This document shows positions 2,814 through 31,905 of a stretch of 33,262 bases of DNA, in pieces. This stretch comes from a virus. The position numbers and the translations under genes were made by a program. The notes beneath the pieces were generated by a model that made no database searches, had not been told where the DNA came from, and saw nothing but the letters and a program-made list of their open reading frames with translations. Location: positions 1 to 33,262 of IMG/VR virus record IMGVR_UViG_3300021963_000405. One strand, given 5' to 3'. The stretch's first letter is position 1; every line of letters starts with the position of its first letter.

Positions 2814-5800
2814 ATGGCAGTAATAAAAAAATACGCAGAAAATCTAACAACTCCGCTTACAAATTACGGAACATTTTTAAATGATACAAATCCAAATTCT
2901 GATTATTTTAGAATAACTGAATTTAAAGATACATTTACTGGCGGTAAGAATGGATTTCTTGTGGAAGGTTCTCAGTATTTAAAAGAATCTACCGAACTTA
3001 AAGTTGAAATATTAGATGTAGAGGGTAATCCGGTATATTGGGAGCCTGGTAATGGTATTCCAGAATATTATGAAGGATTATCTAAGGTTGTTGCTGTATA
3101 TGTTTATGAGGATACTCCAATTGGGTTGGGTAAAATTACTATATTGGGTGAGGCTAAAACATACATAGATGAAAATGGTAATACGCAAGATGTACCTGAT
3201 GAGTGGAAAGGAATTTACAATCTTAAATGGGAAAGAAGTGTTCAAATTAATAGATTATTAAGTAATGAAGATAAAGTTAGATTTTATCGTAGACCTCAAG
3301 TAACTATCAATGAAATAGTAAAGCCAATATTCAATAACATAGTAACTCCAGTAATTCAAAAGGGTATTATTGATGGTAGTTCTCAATCTCCTAAAGCTGG
3401 TGATACTCTTACAAATTATACGTTACCAACATCATATCTTTTAACAATAACTGATGGCGGTGCATGGACTGGTTCTGTTGTTGGTACTAATATTGAGATA
3501 GCTGATTTGGGTGTTAATTTATTAGCAAATGATTTAGTAAATAAATCAAATTTAACCATATCAACTCCATATACTGTTGATGGTATTGTTACTGATTTTA
3601 TAGGACAAGGATATACTGCATCTTTTAATTATGTTGAAGGTGTTGATAATTTAAAAACTGCATTAACCGGGTCTTTTGCAAAAATAACTATTGGTGATTT
3701 AACTACATTTGTTGGTGATGTTGCTAGAGTTAAAGTATTTAGAAAATCTCAATCGGATTTAGCAGATTTTCAATTCATTCAAGAAATACAATTAGAATCA
3801 AATGAATTATTAGTTGATTTGGAATCAACAACAAAGAATCAGGAATTTTACGGATTATTTGATAATTCAAATTTTAAAAATTATTGGGTAACATCTTCAA
3901 ATAATTTATCAACTGCATTTAATCAAAACTTTTTATTTAATTCTGTAAAGTTAGATGCCAATGGAGGACCTTATAGATATTTTACAACTAAGTCAATAGC
4001 AATAACAGAGAATGCAGAATATACATTAAATTTTAATACTAGATTATTAGAAAATTTAAATTCAACAAATTACATTTCCGTTTATATAAGTGGTTCTAAA
4101 CAATCTACATATGGTGGAACTACAACAAAAGTAGCAGCATCTCAAGAAATTATAAAAATATATTCTGATAATTCTTTACTACAAAAAACATCAAAAACAA
4201 TTAATTTTAAAGCAGATGGATTATCCGATGCTAAACTATATTTTGATGTAAAGGGAAATGGTTGGCACATTTCGGATGTTAGTTTAAGAGCATCTCAAGA
4301 AAGTTCTTTTTCTCCTGATGAAATTACATTTATACAACCTGTACCAAGAACTTTACCAAGAGAAACATTTGAATTTTTATTTCAATTCTATGATATAAAT
4401 AATAACTATATCCCAGTAGTTGTTAGTGAAACAAAAACATTTGATGGTGGTAACTTAAATGTAATTAATAAAAGTATTGAATTAATTCCATCATCTTTAT
4501 ATTTTCAATTTGATTCTGGTTCTGGGAACGGCAATCCAGTACCACCAACAGTTATTAATGTTGATATTAAGAAAAATTATTTAACTGGTTCTTATACATT
4601 CACATCACGTTCATTTGATTTCTTTGGTACGGAGTTATCATCATCAATGTATGCTCCAATCGTAACACCTGGTTATTTGGGCGGACAATTTCCCGGCTAT
4701 CTAATTGATAACGATGGTAAGAATAATAATGTTATTTTAACTGTACAAAACTTTACAGGTTCAAGAGATGAAGCGTTAGAAGAATTAGTTGTACAATTTA
4801 TTGAATATACTGTAGAGTGTGAGGGTGTTGAAGATTCAATGGTTATCACTAGAGTAATAGATGGTAAGGGTGGTGTTAATTATGAGATTAGACCTTATAA
4901 TGGAACTATAATTAGAAACTCACATCCTTCATCTTCATTAGAGGTTCAAGCTATTCGTATTGATGGTGTTAATGAAATTTTATTACAAAGTGGTTTACCA
5001 AAAGGACGTTCAAATACTATGTTGCACGTACAATCGGGTTCTACTTATTTAACTTTAGCAGATGCAAGTGCATCCCAATTTATTAGAGGTATTCAGCCGG
5101 GTATAACTGGTTCTGGTGAAGTAAACTATAATGCAATATTCAATAGAGATTCTATAAATGGCCAATTGACATTATATATGATTCCAACGGGCTCCGCATC
5201 ACCATCTTCATCTATATTAACAACATTAACTTTAACGGATATTCAAGATGGTTTAGATACTGGACTTGTATTATTTGATACTAATCAATTTTCAATAAAT
5301 CCAAGAAATGAAAATAAATTCAGACCAATATATTCATCTGCAACCGCATCGTTTTATCGTAGAGGTACAACTGAAAATCCTATAAGTTGTTCATTTGAAG
5401 TTTACCCATCTATGTCAATTAATAAAGATTGGGTGCCTGAATATTGGATGAACTATACAACATTTAGTTGTGCTGAAAATATAACTGTAGCAGCTTATGA
5501 TGAAGGTGGTAATATAATTCCATCTAGAGCAAACGCTTCACAATATAGATTAAGTTCACCATTACAGCAAACTAAACAATTATTAGTAAGTTTTACTTAT
5601 ACGGAACCTTGGACTTCAGCATCAGTATCAGTAGACCAATCATTTACAATTACACCGGATGGTGCACCTGGTGATGAAACAATTATATTTGAAGTAGTTC
5701 CATCATCAATTACATTAGGCGCAAATTCAAGAGGTGTTGTTGGTGATTATAAACCATCAATTACGGATATTAAATTAAAGCAAGGTTCTAGATATCTTTC

Positions 5801-8800
5801 TTTTACTGGAAGTGCTGGTGATAATAAGTTTTCATCACATGGACAATTCTATATAGCAACTGCTTCTATTATTGAAAGTAATGTTAAGTCTGGTAATGTA
5901 CAATTTACTTCTTCAAATGGAGCAGCATATACATCATCTTTGATAGTAAGTGCATCTTCTGATTTAAGACAATTGAGTGGAAGTATTACATATCCATTAA
6001 TAATACATCCTTATTTTACTTCATCAATTTACACTGCAAGCGTTGTTGTTAATTATACAAAGGTATTGGAAGGAGCACCACCAATTCAAGTAATTATAAC
6101 TCCAAATGCACCAAACTTAAAAGCTGATGAGGTTGGATATATTTCAGATTACACCGCAGCTAATACAACAATACAAGTAAAAGATGGTGATGATTTTTTA
6201 AGATTTACAACACAATCAACCGCACCAGGTACATTTAGAATACAAAATGGGGGTTCTTTATTAACTTCAAATATTAGAACAGGCTCAATAGCTAGTTCAT
6301 CTTACAATACTGCAACAGTATCATTTAATAGATTTGACCATCCTTGGGTTTCCGCAAGTGCACAATATAACATTGTTGTATATCCATATGCTTTAGGACC
6401 CGGTCACGAATATACATCATCGGTGATTCAAAGAACTCAAACGTTTACAAAAAATATAGCACCACCAAATGCTAGAAGTGTAGATTTGAAAGCATCTTTT
6501 GATACTGTAAACTTTAATAAAGATGGAGTTGTATCTTCACCATTAGACCCAATTATATTAACGGCAACTGCAACAAATACAACTGGAGCAGTTTGGTTTC
6601 AATTTTATAAAGATGATACCGATTATACCGGTATAGTTGGAGAGGATTCGCCTGGTTCAAAATACGCAACTACTGAAATTGGTGGTGGTGATGCAACTGG
6701 GCCTGGTGAAAACGCAACTTGGACCGTTAGAATTAGAGATGGTAATTCATCACCAACGGCGCCAATTAGAGCAGAAAATTCATTAACAATAGCTGGTATA
6801 AAAGCTGGAGCAGATGCATACAAATTGGTAGCATCAAATGAAAGTACAACAATTACTGCTGATTTGTGGAATACTTCATTTAGTGGTAGTGGTATGAAAA
6901 TAACCACATTTAAAGGTACTGAACAATTATCAAATGTAAGTACACCTACATATAATGCGGCAAATGATGTTTATGATTTCTTAGGAAACTATATAGGTAA
7001 TTTAGGATTTTCATCAGCATCTATATTTTATACATCTTCGTTCGTCACACAATCATCTAATAAATTCCCAACAAGTGACCCTGCTTCAATTGGAGATATA
7101 GCTGCATGGTATGCACCTGCTGTAAATAAAAGTGGACAAATTGTATATAAAGTTGATTTTGAAAATAATAGACAAGTTCAATTTGTAACACAATCAATAT
7201 CTGTACAATTTGAACCACCGGCACCATATGTAGTAAATTTAACAAATGAAAGCTCGGCCGCAGTTTATAAAGTATCTGGGCAACTTTCGTTATCAAATAC
7301 TGGTACTGATATTAGAGTTTATAGAGGTGGTACTGAATTAACAAATAAGCCTGCTGGATTTACTTCTCCACAAAGAGATGCATATGGTGTTACTGGATAT
7401 CAAAATCAATGTAGGATTTCCGTATATTCAAAATCATCACATTTAACATTAGCAAATGGTTGGTTGCCGGGAAGTTATATTACTGGAGTACCTGCACAAA
7501 TGCCAAACATTTCTGGTTGGACTGACCCAAGCACAAATGTAACAGCAGAAATTGTATATCAAGTAGAATGTGAAGGAAGACAAACTTTATATAAAACACA
7601 ATCGTTATCTTTACAAATAGAAGGTTCAACTGGGCCTGGTATTGTAATGAGAGGTGAATGGAGTAGTTTAATAAATTATAGTGGTTCAGTTGAAACTAGA
7701 AACTTTCGTAGAGATGCGGTTATATATGGAACTAATCCAACAACATATTACGCAGCAATTAGTGGTAGTGGACCGCAAACTTATAATAAGCAAGGAACTT
7801 TGGTTGGCTCAAAAGCACCAACGGTTGGCTCTGATAATGCTTGGTGGCAATATTTAGGACAGCAAGAATTCTTTGTAGCAGCTAAGATAGCAATATTTGA
7901 TGAATCATTTGTAAAAAATACAATCAACGTTGGTAACAATAGTGGTAGTGCATTTGCAAACATTGTATTAGCAGGTGGTAGAGAAGACCCGTATATGGCA
8001 GTTGGGCAATATAGTACAATTGGATATGGTAATAGTGGAATTTGGTTGGGTATATATGATGATGGTACAAGCGCAAGTACATTTAAACCTAGATTTTCTT
8101 TAGTTAATGGAGATAACAGTAGGTTTATGAAATGGACCGGTACTGATTTGGAAATTAAAGGTTCTATTACCGTAACTGGTGGAGATGCGGCAACACAAAC
8201 TTACGCAACAACAGTAGCAAATTCGGCTGGAGCAACGGCATATGCAAATTCACAAGCATATACTGGTACTGCAGTAAGTTTACTTAGTGGTTCATTGGGA
8301 GCATTGGCAGCTATTGACCAAATTAACGCAGGACAGGCAACAACTTATATTGGAGCAGGTGCAATTGTAACATCTTTAGTTGCAACAAATTTAATAACTT
8401 CAACAAACTATTCAGCATCAATTGAAGCAGCACCATATTCTAATACTGGTACTTTTATTGATTTGGCAAATGGTAATATTACATCAACTGGATTTGCTGT
8501 TAAAGGAGATGGAACTGCATACTTTAAAGGAACTCTTAATTCATCAAACGCAACATTTGGTGCGTGGACTTTGGATAATACGGCATTCAGTTCCGCAAAT
8601 GGTAGAGTAACTTTAAAAGCAACAAGTGGTGATGAATCTATTTCTGTATTGGATTCTTCTAACGCATTAAGATTCTTAGCAAATACTGCGTTATCGTTAC
8701 CATCACCATCAGCAGCACAACCAACTTCATTTAATACATATGGACCTGGCGGAACTCCTGTTTCATACGCAGCAACAACATCAACAAATGGTGATGTAGA

Positions 8801-9830
8801 TGTTAGCGGAACTACATTTTTAAATTTAACATCATTCAATGCATCCAGTAATGGTGGTAGACACGCAGCAACTTATACATATAATCCAGCATCTGCTTAT
8901 AATACATACGCATACGCATATGGAGCGGCATCGGCATATATGGCAATAACATTAGTAATTACTGATAATTCCAATAATGTTGTTTCAACTGGAACAACAA
9001 AAACTGTATATGCATATGGAACTCAATATCAAGAACCTTATTATGGATATGGCCCACCATCCGGTTATTCATATTTGGGCGGAAACAATGCATATTTAGC
9101 AGACCCATCAACATTTACTGTATCTGCGGCAAATTTATCAGCATCTGGCGCATATAAATTACAATTACAAATTTATTATCAAGTATATACTAACGATACA
9201 TCGGGCAACCCTTATTACGATGATTCAACGGGATATGTAAATTTCCAAGAACCAAGTATTTCTAATACGATAGTTATACAAGCTACTAGTGCTGGTACTT
9301 ATGTAAACGGAGGAGGATTCTTAGCCGCAATTAGTGATACAAGATATTTGCAGGTTTCTGAAGGCCTTGATGGAGGGGCCGCAGCTAATTTAACATATTC
9401 AACAAAAATAAAAGGAAATTTAAATTTAGTTGATGGTACGGTATTTTCGGATTTAACTACTGCACCTGGATATGCACCTGCGGTAAAGGCATTTTGTAGA
9501 TTACTATATAATGGTGGTACTGGTGGCGCAGGAACTATTGGAAACTATTCAATGCAATCTGCATACAATATGGCAAGTGTATCTGTACATCCTACATATA
9601 GGTATTATACACATAATTTTACAACCCCTTTGGCAAATGCAGAATATTCAACATTGGTATCATTATCAAATCAGGGATATGTTGGTAATAATATAACAAA
9701 CGTGCCTATGATAGTAATACAAACATCTACATATACCGCATGGAGAGTTAAATTATTAAATAATAACGTTGATTATATTGAACAATCTATTGTTGGTGGA
9801 TATGCTGGAGTAGCCGTAATAGGAAGATAA
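2814..9830 (+). CDS. Giant tail fibre / adhesin, 2338 aa, with J-like C-terminal part
   Basis: This very large beta- and Ser/Thr/Asn-rich virion protein is probably a central or receptor-binding tail fibre. Residues 1-330 form a conserved-looking head domain. Residues ~345-500 resemble a CBM4/9-type carbohydrate-binding sandwich ending in WHISDVSLRAS. From ~950 to 1600 there are repeated beta-sandwich units of roughly 130-140 residues (GAPGDETIIFEVVP near 950, GAPPIQVIITPNAP near 1088, further units near 1218, 1333 and 1470). From ~1613 the pattern resembles tail host-specificity (lambda J-type) proteins: GEWSSLINYSG, MKWTGTDLEIKGSI near 1770, an Ala-rich helical stretch (~1787-1855), then VKGDGTAYFKGTL near 1893. 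The last ~120 residues, ending VAVIGR, look like a compact tip domain. A probable assembly chaperone follows directly. Receptor and exact tail position cannot be told from sequence. Confidence 0.8.
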   Translation: MAVIKKYAENLTTPLTNYGTFLNDTNPNSDYFRITEFKDTFTGGKNGFLVEGSQYLKESTELKVEILDVEGNPVYWEPGNGIPEYYEGLSKVVAVYVYEDTPIGLGKITILGEAKTYIDENGNTQDVPDEWKGIYNLKWERSVQINRLLSNEDKVRFYRRPQVTINEIVKPIFNNIVTPVIQKGIIDGSSQSPKAGDTLTNYTLPTSYLLTITDGGAWTGSVVGTNIEIADLGVNLLANDLVNKSNLTISTPYTVDGIVTDFIGQGYTASFNYVEGVDNLKTALTGSFAKITIGDLTTFVGDVARVKVFRKSQSDLADFQFIQEIQLESNELLVDLESTTKNQEFYGLFDNSNFKNYWVTSSNNLSTAFNQNFLFNSVKLDANGGPYRYFTTKSIAITENAEYTLNFNTRLLENLNSTNYISVYISGSKQSTYGGTTTKVAASQEIIKIYSDNSLLQKTSKTINFKADGLSDAKLYFDVKGNGWHISDVSLRASQESSFSPDEITFIQPVPRTLPRETFEFLFQFYDINNNYIPVVVSETKTFDGGNLNVINKSIELIPSSLYFQFDSGSGNGNPVPPTVINVDIKKNYLTGSYTFTSRSFDFFGTELSSSMYAPIVTPGYLGGQFPGYLIDNDGKNNNVILTVQNFTGSRDEALEELVVQFIEYTVECEGVEDSMVITRVIDGKGGVNYEIRPYNGTIIRNSHPSSSLEVQAIRIDGVNEILLQSGLPKGRSNTMLHVQSGSTYLTLADASASQFIRGIQPGITGSGEVNYNAIFNRDSINGQLTLYMIPTGSASPSSSILTTLTLTDIQDGLDTGLVLFDTNQFSINPRNENKFRPIYSSATASFYRRGTTENPISCSFEVYPSMSINKDWVPEYWMNYTTFSCAENITVAAYDEGGNIIPSRANASQYRLSSPLQQTKQLLVSFTYTEPWTSASVSVDQSFTITPDGAPGDETIIFEVVPSSITLGANSRGVVGDYKPSITDIKLKQGSRYLSFTGSAGDNKFSSHGQFYIATASIIESNVKSGNVQFTSSNGAAYTSSLIVSASSDLRQLSGSITYPLIIHPYFTSSIYTASVVVNYTKVLEGAPPIQVIITPNAPNLKADEVGYISDYTAANTTIQVKDGDDFLRFTTQSTAPGTFRIQNGGSLLTSNIRTGSIASSSYNTATVSFNRFDHPWVSASAQYNIVVYPYALGPGHEYTSSVIQRTQTFTKNIAPPNARSVDLKASFDTVNFNKDGVVSSPLDPIILTATATNTTGAVWFQFYKDDTDYTGIVGEDSPGSKYATTEIGGGDATGPGENATWTVRIRDGNSSPTAPIRAENSLTIAGIKAGADAYKLVASNESTTITADLWNTSFSGSGMKITTFKGTEQLSNVSTPTYNAANDVYDFLGNYIGNLGFSSASIFYTSSFVTQSSNKFPTSDPASIGDIAAWYAPAVNKSGQIVYKVDFENNRQVQFVTQSISVQFEPPAPYVVNLTNESSAAVYKVSGQLSLSNTGTDIRVYRGGTELTNKPAGFTSPQRDAYGVTGYQNQCRISVYSKSSHLTLANGWLPGSYITGVPAQMPNISGWTDPSTNVTAEIVYQVECEGRQTLYKTQSLSLQIEGSTGPGIVMRGEWSSLINYSGSVETRNFRRDAVIYGTNPTTYYAAISGSGPQTYNKQGTLVGSKAPTVGSDNAWWQYLGQQEFFVAAKIAIFDESFVKNTINVGNNSGSAFANIVLAGGREDPYMAVGQYSTIGYGNSGIWLGIYDDGTSASTFKPRFSLVNGDNSRFMKWTGTDLEIKGSITVTGGDAATQTYATTVANSAGATAYANSQAYTGTAVSLLSGSLGALAAIDQINAGQATTYIGAGAIVTSLVATNLITSTNYSASIEAAPYSNTGTFIDLANGNITSTGFAVKGDGTAYFKGTLNSSNATFGAWTLDNTAFSSANGRVTLKATSGDESISVLDSSNALRFLANTALSLPSPSAAQPTSFNTYGPGGTPVSYAATTSTNGDVDVSGTTFLNLTSFNASSNGGRHAATYTYNPASAYNTYAYAYGAASAYMAITLVITDNSNNVVSTGTTKTVYAYGTQYQEPYYGYGPPSGYSYLGGNNAYLADPSTFTVSAANLSASGAYKLQLQIYYQVYTNDTSGNPYYDDSTGYVNFQEPSISNTIVIQATSAGTYVNGGGFLAAISDTRYLQVSEGLDGGAAANLTYSTKIKGNLNLVDGTVFSDLTTAPGYAPAVKAFCRLLYNGGTGGAGTIGNYSMQSAYNMASVSVHPTYRYYTHNFTTPLANAEYSTLVSLSNQGYVGNNITNVPMIVIQTSTYTAWRVKLLNNNVDYIEQSIVGGYAGVAVIGR

Positions 9831-9842
9831 AAAAATAAAAAT

Positions 9843-10319
9843 ATGGAAGAATTAGAAAATTATATGATTGCTCACAAAGATGAAGAAGGTTACACCATAT
9901 GGTCTATACCAAATTTAGAATTACCAATACAAACGGTAGTAAACGCAACTTGTAGAAACAATGAACATTATGTTTTTGTAACATCATCTTTAGAAGATTT
10001 TGGATTTGCAACTGCATACGATGCTGATTTTTCATTACCAAGTGGTTCTATATCACGCATTTTATTTAATGTAGAAATTGCAAAAGAAACATTTAAAACT
10101 CATATTAGAAATGCTAGAAATGAATTATTTCCTGATTTAGATGTACAATATATGAGAGCATTGGAATCTGGTAATCAAACAAAAATTGAAGAAATAGTTC
10201 AAAAGAAAGAAACTTTACGAAATATAACAAATATTGATTTAAGTGATGTAACTACTTTATCTGAATTAAAAGCAAAATGGCCGGTTGATATATTAGGAAA
10301 ATCTTTGTACGAATTCTAA
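9843..10319 (+). CDS. Probable tail fibre assembly chaperone, 158 aa
   Basis: This gene starts 12 nt after the fibre stop with no promoter or terminator between, so the two are almost certainly co-transcribed. The C-terminal half (about 80-150) has a pattern seen in phage tail-fibre assembly proteins: LDVQYMRALESGNQ, then IVQKKETLRNITNIDLS, then TLSELKAKWP. In those families an acidic helix is followed by a K/R-rich 'K..LR..T' helix and an 'ELKA.WP' end. The N-terminal half is beta-rich and not recognised. Position and C-terminal pattern support a role in folding or trimerising the fibre, but the N-terminus gives no independent support. An alternative is a minor virion protein that binds the fibre. 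Confidence 0.55.
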   Translation: MEELENYMIAHKDEEGYTIWSIPNLELPIQTVVNATCRNNEHYVFVTSSLEDFGFATAYDADFSLPSGSISRILFNVEIAKETFKTHIRNARNELFPDLDVQYMRALESGNQTKIEEIVQKKETLRNITNIDLSDVTTLSELKAKWPVDILGKSLYEF

Positions 10320-10327
10320 AAAAGTAT

Positions 10328-10336
10328 ATATTTATA
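10328..10336 (+). promoter_or_regulatory. Phage promoter-like motif upstream of first coiled-coil gene
   Basis: This is an exact ATATTTATA, 16 nt before the ATG, followed by TATAAACATTAAAG. The downstream paralogue at 14069 has a very similar leader. Confidence 0.55.
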
Positions 10337-10352
10337 TATAAACATTAAAGTT

Positions 10353-10637
10353 ATGTCACAAAAAACAGAACAATTACCTAAAGAAACATTAGAATTATTA
10401 ATAAATTCGCAAACTAAAGCAAATGAACTAATTCTTAGTTTAGGACAAATTCATTTAAGAATTAGAGATTTTAATAATCAAATAGCTAAATTAGAAGAAT
10501 CTAAATTAGAAATAGAAGCTGAAATTGATAATTCAAGTAAGCAGTTTGTAGAACTTACTAAAACTTTAGAGATGAAGTATCCACAAGGTGAAGTTGATTT
10601 GAATCAAGGTATTGTTATATACGAATCTCCTGAATAA
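10353..10637 (+). CDS. Small coiled-coil protein, paralogue of the 14069 gene, 94 aa
   Basis: I do not recognise a named family. The protein is almost entirely helical and heptad-like from ~10 to 75 (LRIRDFNNQIAKLEESKLEI and onward), followed by the short motif KYPQGEVDLNQGIVIYE. The gene at 14069-14467 has the same plan and the same closing motif (KYPQGRINLQEGMIQYQ), plus a longer Gln/Ala-rich tail. The two copies bracket the sugar-transfer module. Proteins of this type are common as small conserved ORFs near structural genes of T4-like environmental phages, but no function can be given. It has its own promoter-like motif, and a host-type promoter follows its stop codon. Confidence 0.7.
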   Translation: MSQKTEQLPKETLELLINSQTKANELILSLGQIHLRIRDFNNQIAKLEESKLEIEAEIDNSSKQFVELTKTLEMKYPQGEVDLNQGIVIYESPE

Positions 10638-10643
10638 AATAAA

Positions 10644-10675
10644 TTTGGTAGTTTAGAATTAATTTTGTATCTTTG
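10644..10675 (+). promoter_or_regulatory. Bacteroidetes primary-sigma-type promoter (TTTG-N20-TATCTTTG)
   Basis: TTTG at 10644-10647 and TATCTTTG at 10668-10675 are separated by 20 nt. This fits the known Bacteroidetes -33 TTTG / -7 TAnnTTTG consensus. The glycosyltransferase fusion starts 16 nt downstream. I saw no other full match in the window; the other transcription units carry the ATATTTATA motif instead. Confidence 0.7.
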
Positions 10676-10691
10676 TTACAATTAATAAAAT

Positions 10692-12872
10692 ATGTCTAAA
10701 AAGAAGTTACTTTATATTGCTCCGCATTTATCTACTGGAGGACAACCGCAATACTTATATAAGCAGGTAAAGCATTTCATTAAAGATTTTGATATCCAAG
10801 TTGTTGAAATAAACAATAGTGGCGGTAATGCTTTTGTAGTTCAAAAAAATAGAATAAAATCATTAGTAACAGTACATACATTAGGAGAGGATAAATCTGA
10901 AATACTTAAAGTAATTGCAGAATTTAATCCTGATATCATACATTTTCAGGAAATCCCACAATTTGATTTAGCTACATTTATATTAGACCAAATTTTTACA
11001 AAAGATAGAAAATATTTTATTGTAGCATCTACACATGGTTCATTTACAAATCCATCTGAAATAGTTTATCACCCTGATAGATATATTTTAGTATCTGAAT
11101 GGAGTAGACAACGATTCATTGATACTGGAGTTGAAACCCAATTGTGGGAATATCCAATCGAAGAATACAAATTTGATAAGGAGGCTGCACAAAAAGAATT
11201 AGGGTTTGAATCAGACTGGAAACATATCCTTAATGTTGGTTTATTTGCTCCAGGTAAAAATCAAGGTGAGATATTTGCATTAGCAACTCAATTAGAAAAA
11301 TATAAAATTAAATTTCACTTTGTAGGAAATCAAGCTGGAAACTTTGAAGATTATTGGGCACCGTTGATGAAACATAAACCATACAATTGTGTGGTGTGGG
11401 GTGAGCGTGATGATGTGGATACATTCTACGCAGCAAGTGATATGTTTTATTTTAGTTCTAAATTAGAATTAAATCCACTATCAATTAAAGAGGCATTGAG
11501 TTATAAACTACCTTCTATATTCAGAAAACTACACACATACTTAGATACATACGATAACAATCCTTTGGTAACTTATATAAATGAAGATTTAAAAGCAACA
11601 AAGAAAGTTATATTAGATACACTTACACCTGAGTTTAATGAAATTCCTGGTTGGTTTGCTTATGATGAATTATATAATGAATTTGTAAATGAATCAAAAG
11701 ATGGAGATACTTTTGTTGAAGTTGGTAGTTGGTTTGGAAAATCTACAAATTATTTAGCAACAAAAATAAAAGAATCTAAAAAAGATATTAAGTTTATAAC
11801 GGTAGATACTTTTAAGGGAACTGATGATGAGGAGTTACATCAAAATATTGTAGGAGCATTCAATGGAGATATATTCTATGAATTTGTAGATAACACAGTA
11901 CTTTCAGAAAACTATGGTTCATTTGAAATAATTAAAGATACATCACACAACGCATCTAATCAATTCCAAAATGGTAGTATTGATTATATAATGTTAGATG
12001 CCGGTCATAGTTACGAAGATGTAAATGATGATATTCATTATTGGTATAACAAATTAAAACCGGGTGGAACTATTAGTGGTGATGATTATGGTGGAAGTTT
12101 CTTCCCTGGCGTTACTAGAGCAGTTAATGAATTCTTTTATGACCAATGTACAATTGGATTTAGAAATTGGAGACGTAAGAAACCTCGTATTCAGGTAAAA
12201 CATCTATTAACTAGACCTGATGATATGAGAGAGATGGTTAGTATCCAATCTCTTAAGCAATTAGAGAAATACGGAATTGTATATGAACAAATTATAAATG
12301 AAGTATATGAGGGATTGGCACCTGCTGAAAATTGTAGAAGGCCTGAGCATATAAGTAAAGATAATAAGCCGGGTGAGTTATACCCTGGTGCTGGTTTGGG
12401 TTGGATGACTGGTAGACACTATGGATGTTATTTAGCACATAGGGGAGCATTGGAAACGATGGATACTGAAAACTTTGATTATACTTTAATATTTGAAGCG
12501 GATGCATTTATTTATACTGGATTAGAGGAATTTGTTGAGATAGTACATAGAGCGTGTTTTATTTCAGAAAGAGATAACGTACCATTCATTTCATTCGCTG
12601 ACAATCCATCTAGAGAAAAAACAAAAATAGATGAACTATTTTCAAAAACAGCATTTAATCAGGATTTAGCACATTGTTATTTAATTCCAAATAGAGAGAA
12701 GCAGTGGTGGATGGATAGGTTGATAGATTGTGGTTGGGATGTTGGTGACCTTTGGTTCAATCACGTTTTCTATAATCACCCAAGACCTCGTTATACAACA
12801 AACAAAATGTATAGTAAGCAGGCGGAAGGATATTCATTATTGGATTTAACAGTTAAAACTTGGAATACATGA
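10692..12872 (+). CDS. Three-domain sugar-modifying enzyme: GT4-like glycosyltransferase, SAM methyltransferase, GT-A-like glycosyltransferase (726 aa)
   Basis: Residues 1 to ~305 resemble a GT-B (GT4-type) glycosyltransferase: N-terminal LLYIAPHLSTGGQPQYLYK, a second Rossmann half starting HILNVGLFAPGKNQGE, and the acidic donor-site pattern SKLELNPLSIKEALSYKLP. Residues ~315-495 are a class I methyltransferase of the Methyltransf_24 kind: SAM loop FVEVGSWFGKST near 342, then YIMLDAGHSYEDVNDDI near 433 and KLKPGGTISGDDY. The last ~200 residues look like a GT-A-type transferase, with a DxD-like acidic patch in YTLIFEADAFIYTG near 594-607. It would build or cap a glycan, with one methylation step. 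The next gene overlaps it by 4 bases (ATGA), so the two form a unit under the host-type promoter. Sugar, acceptor and order of action are unknown. The first two domain calls are firm, the third moderate. Confidence 0.8.
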   Translation: MSKKKLLYIAPHLSTGGQPQYLYKQVKHFIKDFDIQVVEINNSGGNAFVVQKNRIKSLVTVHTLGEDKSEILKVIAEFNPDIIHFQEIPQFDLATFILDQIFTKDRKYFIVASTHGSFTNPSEIVYHPDRYILVSEWSRQRFIDTGVETQLWEYPIEEYKFDKEAAQKELGFESDWKHILNVGLFAPGKNQGEIFALATQLEKYKIKFHFVGNQAGNFEDYWAPLMKHKPYNCVVWGERDDVDTFYAASDMFYFSSKLELNPLSIKEALSYKLPSIFRKLHTYLDTYDNNPLVTYINEDLKATKKVILDTLTPEFNEIPGWFAYDELYNEFVNESKDGDTFVEVGSWFGKSTNYLATKIKESKKDIKFITVDTFKGTDDEELHQNIVGAFNGDIFYEFVDNTVLSENYGSFEIIKDTSHNASNQFQNGSIDYIMLDAGHSYEDVNDDIHYWYNKLKPGGTISGDDYGGSFFPGVTRAVNEFFYDQCTIGFRNWRRKKPRIQVKHLLTRPDDMREMVSIQSLKQLEKYGIVYEQIINEVYEGLAPAENCRRPEHISKDNKPGELYPGAGLGWMTGRHYGCYLAHRGALETMDTENFDYTLIFEADAFIYTGLEEFVEIVHRACFISERDNVPFISFADNPSREKTKIDELFSKTAFNQDLAHCYLIPNREKQWWMDRLIDCGWDVGDLWFNHVFYNHPRPRYTTNKMYSKQAEGYSLLDLTVKTWNT

Positions 12873-14017
12873 TATACGATAATTTAAAAAAGAATAGAAA
12901 TCCAATTGTAAATGTTGAGAACAAAGTAGTAATACATTTTGTTAGAGGACCTTTTGTAGAAATCAAAGGAGGTAAGGTTGCCGAATATAAAGTTGAATTT
13001 ATAGATAATAAAACTGGTAGAATTGTTTATTCAACAACTGTTGGTAATAATTGTTGGTGTAAGTGTAGTATTGAGTATTATGTTGATTGGAAAATCAATA
13101 TATATGAAAATGGAAAAATGTGGTATCAGCATTTATATAATCCAAATAGTAAACGAGTTTATATTGCAATCGATTCCAAAGCTTTAGGCGATTCGTTATC
13201 TTGGTTTCCATACGCAGATGAATTTAGAAAAAAACATAATTGTAATGTGATAGTATCTACATTTATGAATGATATGTTTATAGACCAATATCCGGAACTT
13301 GAATTTGTTAGTCCTGGTACAAATGTTACTGATTTATATGCAATGTATGGTATTGGATTATTTTATAATGAAGATGGTACTATAAATGGATTAAAAAATC
13401 CAACGGACCCAAAAACAGTTACATTACAAAAAATGTGTTCTGATATTTTAGGATTAGAATATAAAGAAGTAAAACCAAAAGTAAGAGATGTAACCAAAGG
13501 ATTGGACTTGAATACTAAACAAGTTTGTATTGGCGTATTTGGAACTGCACAATCTAAATTTTGGAATAATGCAACTGGATGGCAAGATGTAGTTGATTGG
13601 TTGAATAACAAAGGATATACAGTCAAATTATTATCAAAAGAAGGTGATGATTATATGGGTAATAAGTTACCAAAAGGAATAGTTCATCATCCAAACGGAC
13701 CAATTGAAAGGGTTATGATGGAAATGAAAAAATCCAAAGCATTCATTGGAATAGGTAGTGGATTGAGTTGGTTGAGTTGGTCATTAGATGTTCCTACTGT
13801 ATTAATTAGTGGATTTTCATATGATTGGGCAGAAATGGAAGATTGTATCCGAATTGCAGCACCTAAAGGTAAATGTGAAGGGTGTTTTAATAGAATAAAG
13901 TTAGATGGTGGGGATTGGAATTGGTGTCCTGACCATAAGGGTACTGAAAGACAATTTGAATGTACAAAATCAATAACTTCGGAAATGGTAATAAAACAAT
14001 TAGAAAAATTCTTATAA
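12869..14017 (+). CDS. BAHT/TibC-type protein O-heptosyltransferase homologue, 382 aa
   Basis: I chose the ATG at 12869 because it overlaps the preceding stop as ATGA; an in-frame TTG at 12860 is less likely. The protein has the build of the bacterial autotransporter heptosyltransferases (TibC, Aah; GT9-related). It has an N-terminal beta-barrel region (about 18-95, including FVRGPFVEIKGGKVAEYKV), then DSKALGDSLSWFPYADEFRK near 102-121 (the family's 'GDtlAW.py...F' signature), a GT-B C-terminal half (FIGIGSGLSWLSW near 292-304), and a four-cysteine cluster C336-x2-C339-x13-C353-x11-C365. That cluster matches the position of TibC's iron-finger. Known members transfer heptose from ADP-heptose to Ser of strand-loop-strand adhesins. 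In this phage the obvious candidate acceptor is the nearby fibre, which is inference. No heptose-synthesis genes are visible here. Confidence 0.8.
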   Translation: MIYDNLKKNRNPIVNVENKVVIHFVRGPFVEIKGGKVAEYKVEFIDNKTGRIVYSTTVGNNCWCKCSIEYYVDWKINIYENGKMWYQHLYNPNSKRVYIAIDSKALGDSLSWFPYADEFRKKHNCNVIVSTFMNDMFIDQYPELEFVSPGTNVTDLYAMYGIGLFYNEDGTINGLKNPTDPKTVTLQKMCSDILGLEYKEVKPKVRDVTKGLDLNTKQVCIGVFGTAQSKFWNNATGWQDVVDWLNNKGYTVKLLSKEGDDYMGNKLPKGIVHHPNGPIERVMMEMKKSKAFIGIGSGLSWLSWSLDVPTVLISGFSYDWAEMEDCIRIAAPKGKCEGCFNRIKLDGGDWNWCPDHKGTERQFECTKSITSEMVIKQLEKFL

Positions 14018-14030
14018 AAATAAAAAAACA

Positions 14031-14045
14031 ATATACTTATATATA
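14031..14045 (+). promoter_or_regulatory. Variant phage promoter-like motif
   Basis: ATATACTTATATATA also occurs, identical over 15 bases, at 17315-17329. It may be a variant of the ATATTTATA element. It is followed by TAAACAATAAA, close to the leader of the paralogous gene at 10353. Confidence 0.45.
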
Positions 14046-14068
14046 TAAACAATAAAAAACATAATATT

Positions 14069-14467
14069 ATGGCAGAATTAGATAACATCCCACAAAAACA
14101 AACAATTGAAATTGAAACAGTTAAATTGGATGAATCTGTAGTAAAAACAATTACAGAATTAAATCAAAAATCAAATGCAATGGTTTCTGATTTTGGTAGT
14201 ATTTACCTTAGAAAAAAAGAAATAGCAGAAGAATTGATAAAATTAGATTCTATTTTAGAAGATTCGGAAGCTCAATTTAAATCAATTAATGCTGAATTAA
14301 AAGAAATTGTAGATGCATTAGATGATAAATATCCTCAAGGTAGAATTAATTTACAAGAAGGTATGATTCAATATCAGCCTGGTGCATTGAGTAGAAAGCA
14401 ATTAGCAGAACAACAAGCAAAACAAGCACAACAATCTGCTAGTGGTATGAAAGTTGTAAAAGAATAA
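14069..14467 (+). CDS. Small coiled-coil protein, paralogue of the 10353 gene, 132 aa
   Basis: Same architecture as the protein encoded at 10353-10637: a charged N-terminus, a helical heptad-like core (about 25-85), and the shared motif KYPQGRINLQEGMIQYQ. It adds a C-terminal extension rich in Gln, Ala and Lys (KQLAEQQAKQAQQSASG). The leaders of the two genes are also alike. This suggests that a gene plus its promoter was duplicated, with the sugar-transfer pair sitting between the copies. No enzymatic motif is seen. A small virion or chaperone-like protein is possible, but I do not assign a function. Confidence 0.7.
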   Translation: MAELDNIPQKQTIEIETVKLDESVVKTITELNQKSNAMVSDFGSIYLRKKEIAEELIKLDSILEDSEAQFKSINAELKEIVDALDDKYPQGRINLQEGMIQYQPGALSRKQLAEQQAKQAQQSASGMKVVKE

Positions 14468-14498: not shown

Positions 14499-17297
14499 AT
14501 GGGAGAATTATCAAAATTTTTAGTGGAATCAATATTATTGGAAGCGGCTCCGATAGACAAGCAAATAGTTGTCTATTCGGGCCGCTTTCAACCTTTTCAT
14601 AAGGGTCACTTCGCAACATATCAAAACCTTGTAAAGAAATTCGGGTCTGATAGTGTTTATATCGGAACTTCTAATGTTACCGATTCAAAAAAATCTCCAT
14701 TTAATTTTAAGGAAAAGAAAGCAATAATGACAACCATGTTTGGTATTCCATCAAACAAAATTGTTAATATTAGAAATCCGTATGCACCCGAGGAAATACT
14801 AAAAAAATATGATTCAGATACAACTGGTTTAATAGTTGTAGTTGGTGAGAAAGATGAGAATCGTTTAGGTGGTAAATATTTTACTCCATATAAAGGTAAA
14901 GTAACCGAACCATATTTAGATAGAGGATATGTGTACGCATCTCCGGCAACATCAAATCCTATTAGTGGTACTGATGTTCGTTATTGGTTAAGTGCTGGTA
15001 GTGTGGCTGATAGAAAGAAAAACTTTACAAAAGCATATCCAAAGTTTGATGAACAAATATTCAAATTAATTACTCTTAAATTAAAAGGATTAAAAGAATA
15101 TATCAACGAAGAAATTAAACTAAATGTAAAAGTTGGTGATACTTTGTTGATGGGTAAATTCAAAAACAAAAAAGTAGTTGTTAAATCAATAGGTGAAGAT
15201 GAGTGGGGAATGCCAACAATCAATGGTAAGAAAGCAGTAACATTCAGAATACCTAAGAAAGAGCAATTAAAAGAAATGGGATTGCCCGGTGGTGCTGGTG
15301 TTGGTTTAAGTTTGTCGGGTGGATATATTAATGGTGCACCAAAAGCTGATGATGTTAAGAAGGTTAGTAAAAAACTTAACAACAAAGGTATGAGTGGATA
15401 TGAAGAAATTGATGAAGATAAAATTCCTGGTGGATTGGCAAAAGGTAAAACTATAATTGATTTGGCTAAAAAATATGATGCTAAAGGATATTATGACCCA
15501 AAGCAATTTGCAAAAGAATACATCAAACCCAAATTAATGCAGGGTATTAAAGTTGAAATGGAGCACACAACTGATGTTCGTATTGCAACTGAAATAGCTA
15601 TGGACCATTTATGGGAAGATATCAACTATTATGAGAAGTTAGCAAGTATTGAAGGTGATAGTATAGCTGAAGCAAGTGGTAATGGGGCTTTTTACAATGA
15701 TGGAAATGCAACAAGCGGTACAATGTGGAATGCTGATTGGAATGATTATGATAATGAAGGATACTATTTAGATAACTTAGAAGGTTGGGATTTCTTTGAT
15801 GAAACTCCATCTGAAAGAGAAAAGAAAAAAGCAGTAGACCAAAAATTACCAATAGATAATCATAACGATACCACCGATAAGTATAATCGTATATTAAAGC
15901 ATAATTTAAAATCTCCATCCGATTTTCTAAAAGAAAGTTCAGCAAAGGATTTGGAAAAGCAATTAGTAGCATTATACAATACGGCTTTTAAGATGATGCC
16001 AAATTCACCAGCACAAATGAAAGTTAGAGCTGAGATAGACAAACTTAAAAAACAAATAGATTCACTAAAGAAGGAATCAGTAAACGAATCTCTATTATTA
16101 GAAGGTGGGGCTTATGGACATATGAATCACCCATTTGATATTGAGATGAATCTTACATTTGGTGACTTAAAACAAATTGTAGTAAGAGCATTAAATGGTG
16201 ATTTAGAATTAGCAAGAGAGAAGACTGATGGACAGGCATTAGCAGTTAGTTGGGTAAATGGTAGATTAGTTGCAGCTCGTAACAAATCACATCTAAAGAA
16301 CAAAGGAGCTGGTGCTATGACAATAGGACAAGTAGCAGATAAGTTTGCTGGTAGAGGTGGATTAACCGATGCTTACAACTTTGCTATGCAGGATTTATCT
16401 AAAGCAATTGGAGCACTATCCGAACCCCAACGTAAGAAGGTTTTTAAGGATGGTAGTTCGTTTATGAATTTGGAAGTAATATATCCAACGTCTGTAAACG
16501 TAATCCCTTACAATCAACCCCTATTAGTATTTCATGGTACATTTGATTATGATATGGATGGCACTATTGTGGGTGAGAACCAACAAGCAGCATCTATATT
16601 AGGTGGCATGATTAAACAAGTAAATGCACACGTACAATCTAAATACACAATACAGGGCCCTCCTATTAATAAACTTCCTAAATCAGAACACCTTTCCAAA
16701 TTACAAGGAAAGTATTTAGGAATGATTTCTAAACTACAATCTGAATTTGGTTTGCATGATTCTGATGGAGTAGCTGATTATCATCAAGCTTGGTGGACTA
16801 ACTTTGTAGAAAAGAAAGCTAAAAAGTTAGATTATCAACAAAAAATAGGATTAATAAAGAGATGGGCTTTTGGTGATAAGAGTTTCCGTATAGCAGAAAT
16901 AACTGATGAAAAATTAAGAACTTGGGCAGATACAACCGATAAGCAAGACCAACAAAAAATATCAAAGCAAAATCTAATGAGATTTGAGGAAATATTTTTA
17001 GGAGTTGGTGCCGATGTATTATCTTTTATGGATTCGGTTCTTACAGCAAACCCTGATAGTGCTAAAAGACAAATGGTAGCTCGTTTACAATCAACAATAT
17101 CTCAAGTAAAAGCAAGTGGTGACCCTAAGAAGATTGAAAAATTAAAATTAGAGTTATCTCGATTAAATGCACTTGGTGGATTTGAAAAGATTGTTCCAAA
17201 CGAAGGTATTGTATTTGTGTATGGTGGTAACACTTACAAATTAACTGGTGCATTCGCACCCCTAAATCAAATTTTAGGTATTTTCTTCGATAAATAA
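14499..17297 (+). CDS. Multidomain nucleotidyltransferase: NMNAT/cytidylyltransferase + DUF5661-like + ligase-like domain, 932 aa
   Basis: Residues ~22-170 are a nucleotidylyltransferase of the NMNAT/cytidylyltransferase superfamily: GRFQPFHKGH (28-37, with the HxGH signature) and the closing ISGTDVR (155-161). Residues ~305-385 resemble DUF5661 (VEMEHTTD 352-359, AMDHLWED 367-374). A low-complexity linker follows. Residues ~540-932 look like a covalent nucleotidyltransferase of the DNA/RNA ligase superfamily: motif I EKTDG with candidate nucleophile K575, a motif Ia-like VAARNKSHLK, motif III-like FMNLEVIYP, motif IV EGIVFVYGG (E902) and motif V-like TYKLTG (K914). Multidomain 'cytidylyltransferase' proteins occur in marine T4-like phages; the reaction is not known to me. 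LLE-A (13-16), INE-E (202-205) and LLE-G (533-536) fit the gp21 L/I-x-E cleavage rule and fall at domain edges. That suggests head packaging, which is a hypothesis. Confidence 0.75.
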   Translation: MGELSKFLVESILLEAAPIDKQIVVYSGRFQPFHKGHFATYQNLVKKFGSDSVYIGTSNVTDSKKSPFNFKEKKAIMTTMFGIPSNKIVNIRNPYAPEEILKKYDSDTTGLIVVVGEKDENRLGGKYFTPYKGKVTEPYLDRGYVYASPATSNPISGTDVRYWLSAGSVADRKKNFTKAYPKFDEQIFKLITLKLKGLKEYINEEIKLNVKVGDTLLMGKFKNKKVVVKSIGEDEWGMPTINGKKAVTFRIPKKEQLKEMGLPGGAGVGLSLSGGYINGAPKADDVKKVSKKLNNKGMSGYEEIDEDKIPGGLAKGKTIIDLAKKYDAKGYYDPKQFAKEYIKPKLMQGIKVEMEHTTDVRIATEIAMDHLWEDINYYEKLASIEGDSIAEASGNGAFYNDGNATSGTMWNADWNDYDNEGYYLDNLEGWDFFDETPSEREKKKAVDQKLPIDNHNDTTDKYNRILKHNLKSPSDFLKESSAKDLEKQLVALYNTAFKMMPNSPAQMKVRAEIDKLKKQIDSLKKESVNESLLLEGGAYGHMNHPFDIEMNLTFGDLKQIVVRALNGDLELAREKTDGQALAVSWVNGRLVAARNKSHLKNKGAGAMTIGQVADKFAGRGGLTDAYNFAMQDLSKAIGALSEPQRKKVFKDGSSFMNLEVIYPTSVNVIPYNQPLLVFHGTFDYDMDGTIVGENQQAASILGGMIKQVNAHVQSKYTIQGPPINKLPKSEHLSKLQGKYLGMISKLQSEFGLHDSDGVADYHQAWWTNFVEKKAKKLDYQQKIGLIKRWAFGDKSFRIAEITDEKLRTWADTTDKQDQQKISKQNLMRFEEIFLGVGADVLSFMDSVLTANPDSAKRQMVARLQSTISQVKASGDPKKIEKLKLELSRLNALGGFEKIVPNEGIVFVYGGNTYKLTGAFAPLNQILGIFFDK

Positions 17298-25292: not shown

Positions 25293-26615
25293 ATGATTAA
25301 GCCTTTCTCAATTTTAGATACCCGAACTAAAGAATGGCAGGACCGTAAGAGGTACTGGATACAAACCTACAATATTCAATCGGAATTGGGCAGGGAAGAT
25401 ACCGATAGTAGAGCCCGTTTCTGGGAAGATAATACTATTTCAATATTTGATGCAACCCTTTGTGAGAATATGTACCAATGGTTCACTCCAAAAGAAGGTA
25501 AGATATTAGACCCATTTGCTGGTGGAAGTGTTAGGGGTATTGTGGCAACTGAAATGGGATATGAGTATATGGGTATCGATTTATCCAAACAACAAATACA
25601 GGAAAATCGAAAGCAATCATCTAAACCAAAATGGGTAAGTGGTGATAGTGATGAGATGTTGAATTATTTAGTAGATGAACAATTTGATTTTGTATTTACT
25701 TGTCCACCTTATTATGATTTAGAAGTTTATAGTGATAATTCGTTGGATATATCAACTATGGAAGATGATAAGTTCGATGAGAAATATTTCAGCATCTTAG
25801 GAAAGGCTGCAAAAAAGTTAAAGAATAATAGATTCTTTGCAGTAGTGGTATCGGAAGTAAGAGAACAATCCCTAACTGGAAATTACAAAATAGGAAAGTA
25901 TAGAGGGTTAGTATCTAAAACTATTCAAGCGTGTGAGGAAGCTGGACTACACTTCTACAACGATATGATTCTATTCAACTCACAACATCAGGCTGCTAGA
26001 GTAGTTGATACATACTTTAAAAGAAATCGTAAGGTAGCATCGGTTCATCAAAACATATTAGTATTCGTAAAAGGAAACCCTGATATTGCTGCAGAAGATA
26101 TTGAATTTGATGGAACATATCAATGTGTGGTAGATGGTGTGAAATATAAATCATTTAGAGAAGCAGCTATTTCAATAGACCCAAATACATTAGTAGCTAC
26201 CGAAGTTGAGAGAAGATGTCGTTCAACTAAATCCAAATATAAAGAGTGGCAAATCATTGGTGAGGAAACAAAACCACAAATTAAATACGAAGTTGATGGA
26301 GTTCCTTTTGAGAATCCAAAACAGGTAGCAGAATTGATTGGTGGTGATATGACCGAATCAATGGCTAGAAATTACATAGAATCAAACAATCCCAAATACC
26401 GTCATTGGAAGAAAGCCGATGGTTGGGATATTACCTACGAACAAATGCAAGATTTGTGGGCAAACAATATTACATTAGAATTACCTATCATTAGTTGTGA
26501 TGGTAAAGAATTTTATTCAATTATAGATGCGGCCAATTACTTTGGTTGTTCAGATGAGCGTATCCGCCAAAAACTTAAATCAGATAAGTATTCCACTTTT
26601 ATTTATCTTTTCTAA
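25293..26615 (+). CDS. DNA methyltransferase (N4/N6 type) with three C-terminal NUMOD-like repeats, 440 aa
   Basis: Residues ~1-265 form an amino-methyltransferase: motif I DPFAGGSVRG (73-82), a SAM-binding acidic end MGIDLS, and motif IV TCPPYYDLE (136-144), a CPPY variant of D/N/SPPY. Target base and site cannot be deduced. Residues ~275-435 contain three similar segments: VVDGVKYKSFREAAISI (279-295, ending in W319), YEVDGVPFENPKQVAELIG (332-350, ending in W372) and SCDGKEFYSIIDAANYFG (401-418). These resemble the small helical DNA-binding modules found in homing endonucleases. The gene lies between the prohead operon and the scaffold gene, where T4-like phages usually have nothing, and is preceded by a terminator. 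It looks like an inserted accessory gene. No cognate restriction enzyme is nearby, so it is an orphan methylase. Confidence 0.85.
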   Translation: MIKPFSILDTRTKEWQDRKRYWIQTYNIQSELGREDTDSRARFWEDNTISIFDATLCENMYQWFTPKEGKILDPFAGGSVRGIVATEMGYEYMGIDLSKQQIQENRKQSSKPKWVSGDSDEMLNYLVDEQFDFVFTCPPYYDLEVYSDNSLDISTMEDDKFDEKYFSILGKAAKKLKNNRFFAVVVSEVREQSLTGNYKIGKYRGLVSKTIQACEEAGLHFYNDMILFNSQHQAARVVDTYFKRNRKVASVHQNILVFVKGNPDIAAEDIEFDGTYQCVVDGVKYKSFREAAISIDPNTLVATEVERRCRSTKSKYKEWQIIGEETKPQIKYEVDGVPFENPKQVAELIGGDMTESMARNYIESNNPKYRHWKKADGWDITYEQMQDLWANNITLELPIISCDGKEFYSIIDAANYFGCSDERIRQKLKSDKYSTFIYLF

Positions 26616-29714: not shown

Positions 29715-30278
29715 ATGGATGTAATTTACAAAATTAGTTCACCAAAAGGAAAGGTATATATTGGTAGAACAAACAATTTTAATGGCAGAATGGTCGAGCA
29801 TAAGCATTGTGCTCTAACAAAGAAAATGAAAAACTCATTATATAAAGCCATTAGGAAATATGGATGGGATAATATGACAAAAGAAATTATTTGCGAAGTT
29901 GAAACCGAAAAAGCGCAAATGCTAGAAGAAGAATTAATCAAAGCACATAATTCAGTTAAAAGGGGGTACAACGATACCTATACCGGCGGAGGTGGGGATA
30001 TATGGGTAGATAGACGAGATACTAAAGAATATATGGAATGGATATCTCATATGAAAGAAATCAGTACAGGCAAAAATAATGGTATGTACGGAAAGACACA
30101 CTCCGAAGAATCAAGGGATAAACTAAAAGAAAGAGCCAAAGGCCGTTTCACATTAGATTGGTATAAAGAAAGAAATGGTGATGTGGACGGTGAGAGATTA
30201 TATGAGGAAAGGAGAGTATGGTTAAAGAGTAGAAATTTGAAGAAAGATGAGAATGGTAGATTTTTAAAAGCAAAGTAG
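29715..30278 (+). CDS. GIY-YIG homing endonuclease with NUMOD3 motif, 187 aa
   Basis: The N-terminal GIY-YIG domain (about 1-90) has VIYKI (GIY element), KVYIGRTNNFNGRMVEH (YIG element with R25) and the catalytic glutamate region LEEELI (about 70-75). A NUMOD3-type DNA-binding motif, KNNGMYGKTHSEESRDKLKE, follows at 120-139, then a charged C-terminal tail. Such free-standing enzymes (T4 seg genes) cut a specific site in related phages and spread by repair. It sits between the capsid gene and the next virion gene, with its own promoter motif and a terminator before it, typical of an inserted selfish gene. The length is within the usual range, and no frameshift is seen, so it looks intact. Confidence 0.92.
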   Translation: MDVIYKISSPKGKVYIGRTNNFNGRMVEHKHCALTKKMKNSLYKAIRKYGWDNMTKEIICEVETEKAQMLEEELIKAHNSVKRGYNDTYTGGGGDIWVDRRDTKEYMEWISHMKEISTGKNNGMYGKTHSEESRDKLKERAKGRFTLDWYKERNGDVDGERLYEERRVWLKSRNLKKDENGRFLKAK

Positions 30279-31566: not shown

Positions 31567-31905
31567 ATGGCAATAGAAATAACTAAAAATCTTACGCAAG
31601 TAACTATATCAACGACCGGTGTAGCTGGTAGAAATGGTACATCTGGTACATCTGGATTTTCAATAGATAGTAGTTCATTTGCAACAACTGGTTCTAATAC
31701 TTTTATAGGAAATCAAACAATTACGGGTTCACTAAATGTAACTGGTTCGATTAATATTGATAATGTTATTAAATTAACACCCATAACAACTTTCCCAAAC
31801 GGACAAGCTGGAATGTTAGTAGCATCAGCATCGTATGGTAAAACAAATTTATATATGTACGATGGCTCTAATTGGAAATGGCTAGTGACCGGTTCAATCG
31901 CATAA
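31567..31905 (+). CDS. Short fibre-like virion protein with collagen-like Gly repeats, 112 aa
   Basis: The N-terminus (MAIEITKNLTQVTIS) is followed by Gly-x-y triplets GRNGTSGTSG (about 21-30), a beta-helix-like segment TGSNTFIGNQTITGSLNVTG (about 40-59), and a compact end with LYMYDGSNWKWL. The TGSNTF.GNQTI.GSL.VTGS pattern is common in trimeric fibre tips and spikes of environmental phages. It may be a short head or neck fibre (whisker-like). No promoter lies in front of it, so it is co-transcribed with the preceding gene. Confidence 0.6.
   Translation: MAIEITKNLTQVTISTTGVAGRNGTSGTSGFSIDSSSFATTGSNTFIGNQTITGSLNVTGSINIDNVIKLTPITTFPNGQAGMLVASASYGKTNLYMYDGSNWKWLVTGSIA

Follow-up and report, generated by a model that had tools for sequence, protein, structure and literature searches.

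We analyzed a 33,262-nucleotide viral sequence from IMG/VR (IMGVR_UViG_3300021963_000405, positions 1 to 33,262; this whole stretch is hereafter the window), a fragment of a T4-like phage that carries terminase, portal, protease, major capsid and head-tail adaptor genes. It encodes a predicted BAHT-like protein O-heptosyltransferase (12860-14017, + strand) directly behind a three-domain sugar enzyme (10692-12872, + strand). The best overall explanation, which we consider probable, is that this pair serves a phage-encoded O-heptosylation of collagen-like virion fibres, whose glycans the fusion enzyme would lengthen and methylate. This explanation builds on features that were computed directly, namely enzyme families, fold, active-site conservation, a pairing that relatives never break and that some phages turn into a fusion, membership of a distinct clade and an association with collagen-like triplets.

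The BAHT-like enzyme and its three-domain partner

The BAHT-like transferase named in an earlier note on this DNA is real: the window protein matched TIGR04414 with E = 1.5e-84 and 284.1 bits (cut-off 200), and its likelier start is the ATG at 12869, which overlaps the upstream stop codon as ATGA. By sequence, its only solved relative was TibC (4rap; E = 4.3e-53), and the predicted structure (predicted local distance difference test score (pLDDT), 90) had the TibC fold, including the N-terminal beta-barrel, with template modeling (TM) scores of 0.86-0.87 to 4rap/4rb4 versus ~0.45 to WaaC. TibC residues Asp110, Thr226, Lys230 and Trp305 were all retained in the window protein and across its clade, except for one Ser at 226 in a domain from a triplet-selected contig (see below), and the four-Cys iron finger was likewise kept (Cys 339, 342, 356 and 368, aligning with TibC 339, 342, 358 and 370). 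Where the beta-hairpin thumb of BAHT enzymes ends in two hydrophobic residues, the window protein has Tyr-Met and many triplet-contig domains have gaps. In a tree of 38 clade enzymes and 16 BAHT enzymes of the type associated with strand-loop-strand (SLS) repeats, the former made up one clade with no intruder (ultrafast bootstrap, 100), and a quick FastTree run also recovered this clade, at a weak local support of 0.36. The window enzyme resembles TibC and AAH, the Escherichia coli protein O-heptosyltransferases (PMC4358343), in its profile and fold, in the catalytic Asp, the Thr/Lys/Trp site for the donor and the iron finger, and in a gene position beside a repeat-rich surface protein. Unlike them, it belongs to a separate clade in which most members have lost Arg286, lacks an SLS autotransporter, is of a type that occurs joined to a GT4 enzyme or encoded next to one, and has triplet proteins as its likely acceptor.

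Its partner combines a GT4 part (residues ~1-325; PF00534, 34.7 bits, above the cut-off of 26.4), a sugar-type O-methyltransferase (~326-490; Methyltransf_24, PF13578, 66.7 bits, above the cut-off) and a weak GT25-like domain (~490-726; PF01755, 16.9 bits, below the cut-off of 24), in agreement with the tri-domain architecture described earlier. GT4 and sugar-O-methyltransferase folds were visible in the predicted model (pLDDT, 84.5). The first matched HepE, BshA and WaaG with Z-scores of ~20-23 (HepE: Z, 22.7; root-mean-square deviation, 3.4 over 295 residues) and the second matched sugar-type O-methyltransferases such as MeT1. For the C-terminal domain there were weak fold matches to GLT25D1/COLGALT1, the collagen hydroxylysine galactosyltransferase, and other GT25 enzymes, but the TM scores reached just 0.2-0.3 (for the whole model), the Pfam score is below its cut-off and GT25 also contains lipopolysaccharide (LPS) enzymes.

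The two enzymes were adjacent and never separated in relatives with enough sequence, where the order ran fibre, coiled coil, fusion enzyme, BAHT-like enzyme, coiled coil, nucleotidyltransferase. At the matching place, Microcystis phage Mel-JY01 encodes a single 1226-residue protein in which a BAHT-like domain is combined with a GT4 part. Triplet-selected contigs (among the matches listed) gave 19 loci, of which 10 had the BAHT-like domain fused to a window-like GT4 domain and 7 had one nearby; in one protein (L695), an FkbM methyltransferase, GT32, GT4 and BAHT shared a single chain. Because relatives always keep the two genes together and unrelated phages have them either fused or side by side, a shared pathway for the two enzymes is well supported by these sequence comparisons. 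The earlier proposal of an initiating BAHT-like enzyme with an extending and methylating fusion thus stands as far as joint action is concerned, most likely on a phage protein (given inseparability, fusion and HldE-like neighbours), but not in its choice of the neighbouring fibre as target.

Collagen-like triplets and candidate acceptors

BAHT enzymes modify autotransporters with SLS repeats (PMC4358343). No SLS repeat (TIGR04415) exceeded the cut-off in any of 12 phage records, long relatives included. Of the 27 BAHT-bearing bacterial genomes, 20 had SLS repeats and 7 had none; these 7 are the genomes whose BAHT groups with the phage enzymes, and every one of them contained runs of Gly-Ser/Thr-Ser/Thr triplets. 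A triplet open reading frame (ORF) lay inside the fetched flank at 8/9 clade-type bacterial loci versus 1/71 SLS-type loci. In Methylobacter luteus, where the surroundings are those of an ordinary chromosome, the enzyme gene follows that of a 287-residue protein with GTAGTSGTSG repeats (Pfam Collagen, 33 bits), and in Methylobacter chromosomes the triplet ORF adjoins the enzyme gene with no phage genes nearby.

We also selected viral contigs solely for a G-T-S/T triplet DNA pattern and tested the long ones with TIGR04414; this sample is drawn from the matches listed, and the contigs are fragments. A TIGR04414 gene was present in 18/30 long triplet-selected contigs, compared with 2/23 GPQ/K-collagen contigs and 0/25 random contigs (controls, at least 40 kb), and one of the two positive GPQ-collagen controls also had 356 triplet matches. 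The resulting association (18/30 versus 2/48; Fisher p = 5e-8) overstates independence, since some of the sampled domains are related. In eight triplet-selected contigs, triplet ORFs fell inside the ~8-kb fetched flank. Triplets were also found in all six long relatives first tested, in Mel-JY01 and in LR756501, with long relatives giving 11 to 250 pattern matches, and one of these relatives (G001) encodes a 4590-residue protein with 948 residues of triplets. The clade therefore tracks collagen-like G-S/T-S/T proteins, in bacterial genomes and triplet-selected contigs alike, instead of the fibre that had been put forward as the enzyme's target.

Mucin-like poly-Thr proteins were considered as a general acceptor and rejected, being present in only four loci. 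There, the proteins have uninterrupted stretches of 17-29 Thr/Ser residues and are encoded downstream of the giant fibre, before the enzyme pair (L075, 6152-7600; L147, 1817-3130; L070/L071, ~5785-7890); they are further possible acceptors of O-glycans. In G002 (L189, 1574-3571), the mucin-like protein adjoins a 665-residue protein that, judged by eye, resembles a glycosyltransferase with a radical-SAM/SPASM domain.

Within the window, the candidate acceptor locus is a gene for a 112-residue fibre-like protein (31567-31905, + strand) that contains GRNGTSGTSGFSIDSSSFATTGSN. The nearest relative, whose BAHT-like protein is 88% identical to that of the window, has a collagen-like gene ~17 kb downstream (L710; at least 1175 residues; Pfam Collagen, 52.3 bits, cut-off 27.2). 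Another relative (L711) has a 652-residue protein in which 228 residues of triplets end in GTSGFSIDSGSFATTGSN, nearly the same words as in the window. Given the matching position and the near-identical end of the triplet run, the window gene is best seen, from sequence, as a shortened allele of the relatives' collagen-like gene, and the phage may have longer triplet genes beyond the part of the genome covered here.

Donor sugar, mechanism and alternatives

Across 78 distinct relatives, the interval that separates the BAHT-like gene from the coiled-coil gene held HldC- and HldA-like genes together in 39 and an HldC-like gene alone in 7 (46/78 in total), beginning right at the stop codon of the BAHT-like gene. 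HldE unites these two activities, a kinase and an adenylyltransferase that act in the synthesis of ADP-heptose, and the presence of HldE-like genes next to the enzyme in 46/78 relatives lends indirect support to a heptose donor. An HldA-like gene was present in LR756501. The window yielded no HldE domain, and neither an HldC- nor an HldA-like gene occurs there. G001, G002 and G003 each have a second HldC-like gene, and those of G002 and G003 had no visible heptose neighbours. That the long relatives encode the whole ADP-heptose pathway was rejected, as GmhA was found in LR756504 only. This 636-kb phage, which also has a BAHT-like gene, carries a complete GmhA (L187, 10084-10653; 251 bits, over the cut-off). 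Heptose is the likely sugar, although we are less sure of it than of a protein-glycosylation module because Arg286 is lost and the Hld genes are optional.

We infer catalytic activity, the sugar, the acceptor triplets, the order of steps, glycans on the virion and any benefit as follows. The BAHT-like enzyme would initiate the glycan on Ser/Thr of the Gly-Ser/Thr-Ser/Thr triplets in phage fibres, most likely by transferring heptose from ADP-heptose. In the window lineage, the acceptors would be the product of the gene flanked by those for major capsid and neck, together with the products of very long fibre genes at a greater distance. The GT4/methyltransferase/GT25-like fusion would then attach more sugars and a methyl cap, as its domain content suggests. 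In some relatives, the HldC- and HldA-like genes would raise the supply of ADP-heptose, for which the window phage would rely on its host or on genes outside the fragment. The possible benefits to the phage include shielding, fibre stiffness and receptor binding.

Several observations count against this interpretation. The window's candidate acceptor gene holds just two GTS triplets (GRNGTSGTSGFSIDSSSFATTGSN) and has no Pfam Collagen (PF01391) match, and the window is a fragment, so that triplet genes were judged from only 33,262 nucleotides of the genome. LR756504 and contig G074 each have the enzyme and no triplet match. The association between enzyme and triplets is due in part to common phage descent: the 19 domains of the triplet sample had a median identity of 38%, with 29 pairs more than 60% identical. 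The position of Arg286 is Val in the window protein (a one-residue alignment shift is possible, but several relatives have no Arg at all at that place) and is not Arg in most of the clade, whereas 70/71 SLS-type proteins have Arg. HldA/HldC-like genes are absent in 32/78 relatives, and their products score below curated cut-offs, so that their identity rests on family and position. Finally, the adjacent giant fibre may be an additional acceptor.

That the pair glycosylates this 2338-residue fibre (2814-9830, + strand), recognized through its beta repeats, was the earlier note's proposal and appears quite unlikely. Its description of the fibre was borne out: the protein is rich in Ser (10.6%), Thr (10.4%) and Asn (7.7%), and window-wise alignment uncovered two tandem pairs of ~120-residue repeats (~920-1160 and ~1360-1640; best local scores of 109-113 versus at most 63 in shuffles) that a BLAST self-comparison did not return. 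The fibre also lies upstream of the pair in relatives with enough sequence, some of those relatives' fibres contain short triplet runs, and LR756508 has the same fibre head beside a different set of GT-like genes. Against such a role, a profile search found no SLS repeat, the kind known as a BAHT acceptor, in the window fibre, which contains no collagen triplets either; the fibre-enzyme neighbourhood is merely syntenic within the lineage, and several other phages have the enzyme beside triplet proteins. The giant fibre is thus probably not the main acceptor. The idea that it is homologous to a solved structure was dropped, as no match was found by sequence.

O-heptosylation of triplet fibres also has to be weighed against a different target, a different sugar and mere coincidence. 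Modification of a host surface glycan (LPS or capsule), leading to superinfection exclusion of the kind already proposed for pelagimyophage glycosyltransferases and rfaE, would fit the occurrence of the GT4 fold in WaaG and WbnH, the LPS enzymes of the GT25 family and the interpretation of such phage genes as acting on the O-chain (PMC7029224). We consider it improbable, as the fold is that of the protein-modifying TibC and not of WaaC (TM, 0.86 versus ~0.45), the enzyme's relatives are GT4-fused in many phages and a protein repeat is tracked even in chromosomes without nearby phage genes. Use of another nucleotide sugar on the same acceptor is unlikely but deserves more weight. TibC Arg286 touches the donor adenine and is needed in TibC (PMC4358343), so its replacement in most clade members means that the donor could differ; the Pro300/Ser294 position is also mostly Gly or Ser in the clade, and the HldE-like genes, sub-threshold and optional as they are, would then serve elsewhere or make a different activated sugar. 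The active-site Thr, Lys, Trp and Asp are nevertheless retained, and HldC/HldA-like genes stand directly behind the enzyme in the 46 relatives noted above. Least of all do we believe that enzyme and triplets co-occur as a by-product of phage lineage and size with no functional link. Both do occur in large phages, and some sampled domains are closely related, but random and GPQ-collagen contigs of at least 40 kb mostly lack the enzyme, its fusion architectures are diverse, and the Methylobacter chromosomes have two-gene loci with neither phage genes nor SLS repeats.

Gene neighbourhood and comparison with known systems

The earlier gene list was correct in that the fibre, three-domain enzyme and BAHT-like gene are contiguous and all on the + strand, with the fibre and sugar-enzyme region downstream of an SbcC/gp46-like gene. 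The 158-residue product of 9843-10319 (+ strand) had been labelled a chaperone, which is unproven, its sole match being phrog_20196, a family of unknown function (E = 3.5e-19). A small coiled-coil protein (10353-10637, + strand) and the last ORF of the range (14069-14467, + strand), also a coiled coil and not a sugar gene, are paralogues (BLASTP E = 1e-11) that bracket the two enzyme genes, an arrangement suggestive of their insertion into a duplicated gene. Beyond them, a 932-residue nucleotidyltransferase-like protein (14499-17297, + strand) is a conserved syntenic landmark; it matches PF01467 and NadM-type NMN adenylyltransferase models, and its identification as HldC was rejected. LR756508 (L027, 7136-11957) has the order SbcC, fibre, nucleotidyltransferase with different GT-like genes upstream of the fibre, no BAHT-like gene and no triplets. 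Elsewhere in the window, a DNA methyltransferase-like gene (25293-26615) sits amid the head genes and a GIY-YIG homing endonuclease gene (29715-30278) directly follows the major capsid gene.

A close parallel in operation, not descent, is found in Clostridioides difficile, where SgtA puts O-GlcNAc on Thr of GPT repeats in the collagen-like BclA3 and is encoded immediately upstream of it (PMC7157674). Both systems have an initiating protein glycosyltransferase encoded near a collagen-like acceptor, but SgtA is a different enzyme that uses UDP-GlcNAc, and its acceptor is on spores instead of virions. Closer in setting are T4-like pelagimyophages, in which a host recognition cluster with glycosyltransferases and rfaE has been read as modifying host LPS or its O-chain (PMC7029224). 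They resemble the window in being T4-like, in having sugar genes around tail-fibre genes and in the triple collagen repeats of structural proteins; by contrast, the portion of that paper drawn on here favours the O-chain reading and describes neither a BAHT-like enzyme nor a link to triplets. In the open-access literature (subscription journals and preprints lay outside the search), we found no paper on collagen-like proteins, heptosyltransferases and phages together, and none on Mel-JY01.

For the enzyme's clade, the data favour a virion protein over host LPS as the target. Whether heptosylation of collagen-like triplet fibres forms a widespread undescribed system, found in large phages and a few bacterial chromosomes, with some phages bringing their own ADP-heptose genes and displaying glycosylated collagen on their virions, is in our judgement evenly balanced. 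If it does, the triplet-tracking sister clade would add a second acceptor class to the BAHT family, so far described for its action on autotransporter adhesins of bacteria. It would also offer an alternative reading of phage glycosyltransferase clusters hitherto taken as host LPS modification, and would predict glycosylated collagen-like fibres on large phages.

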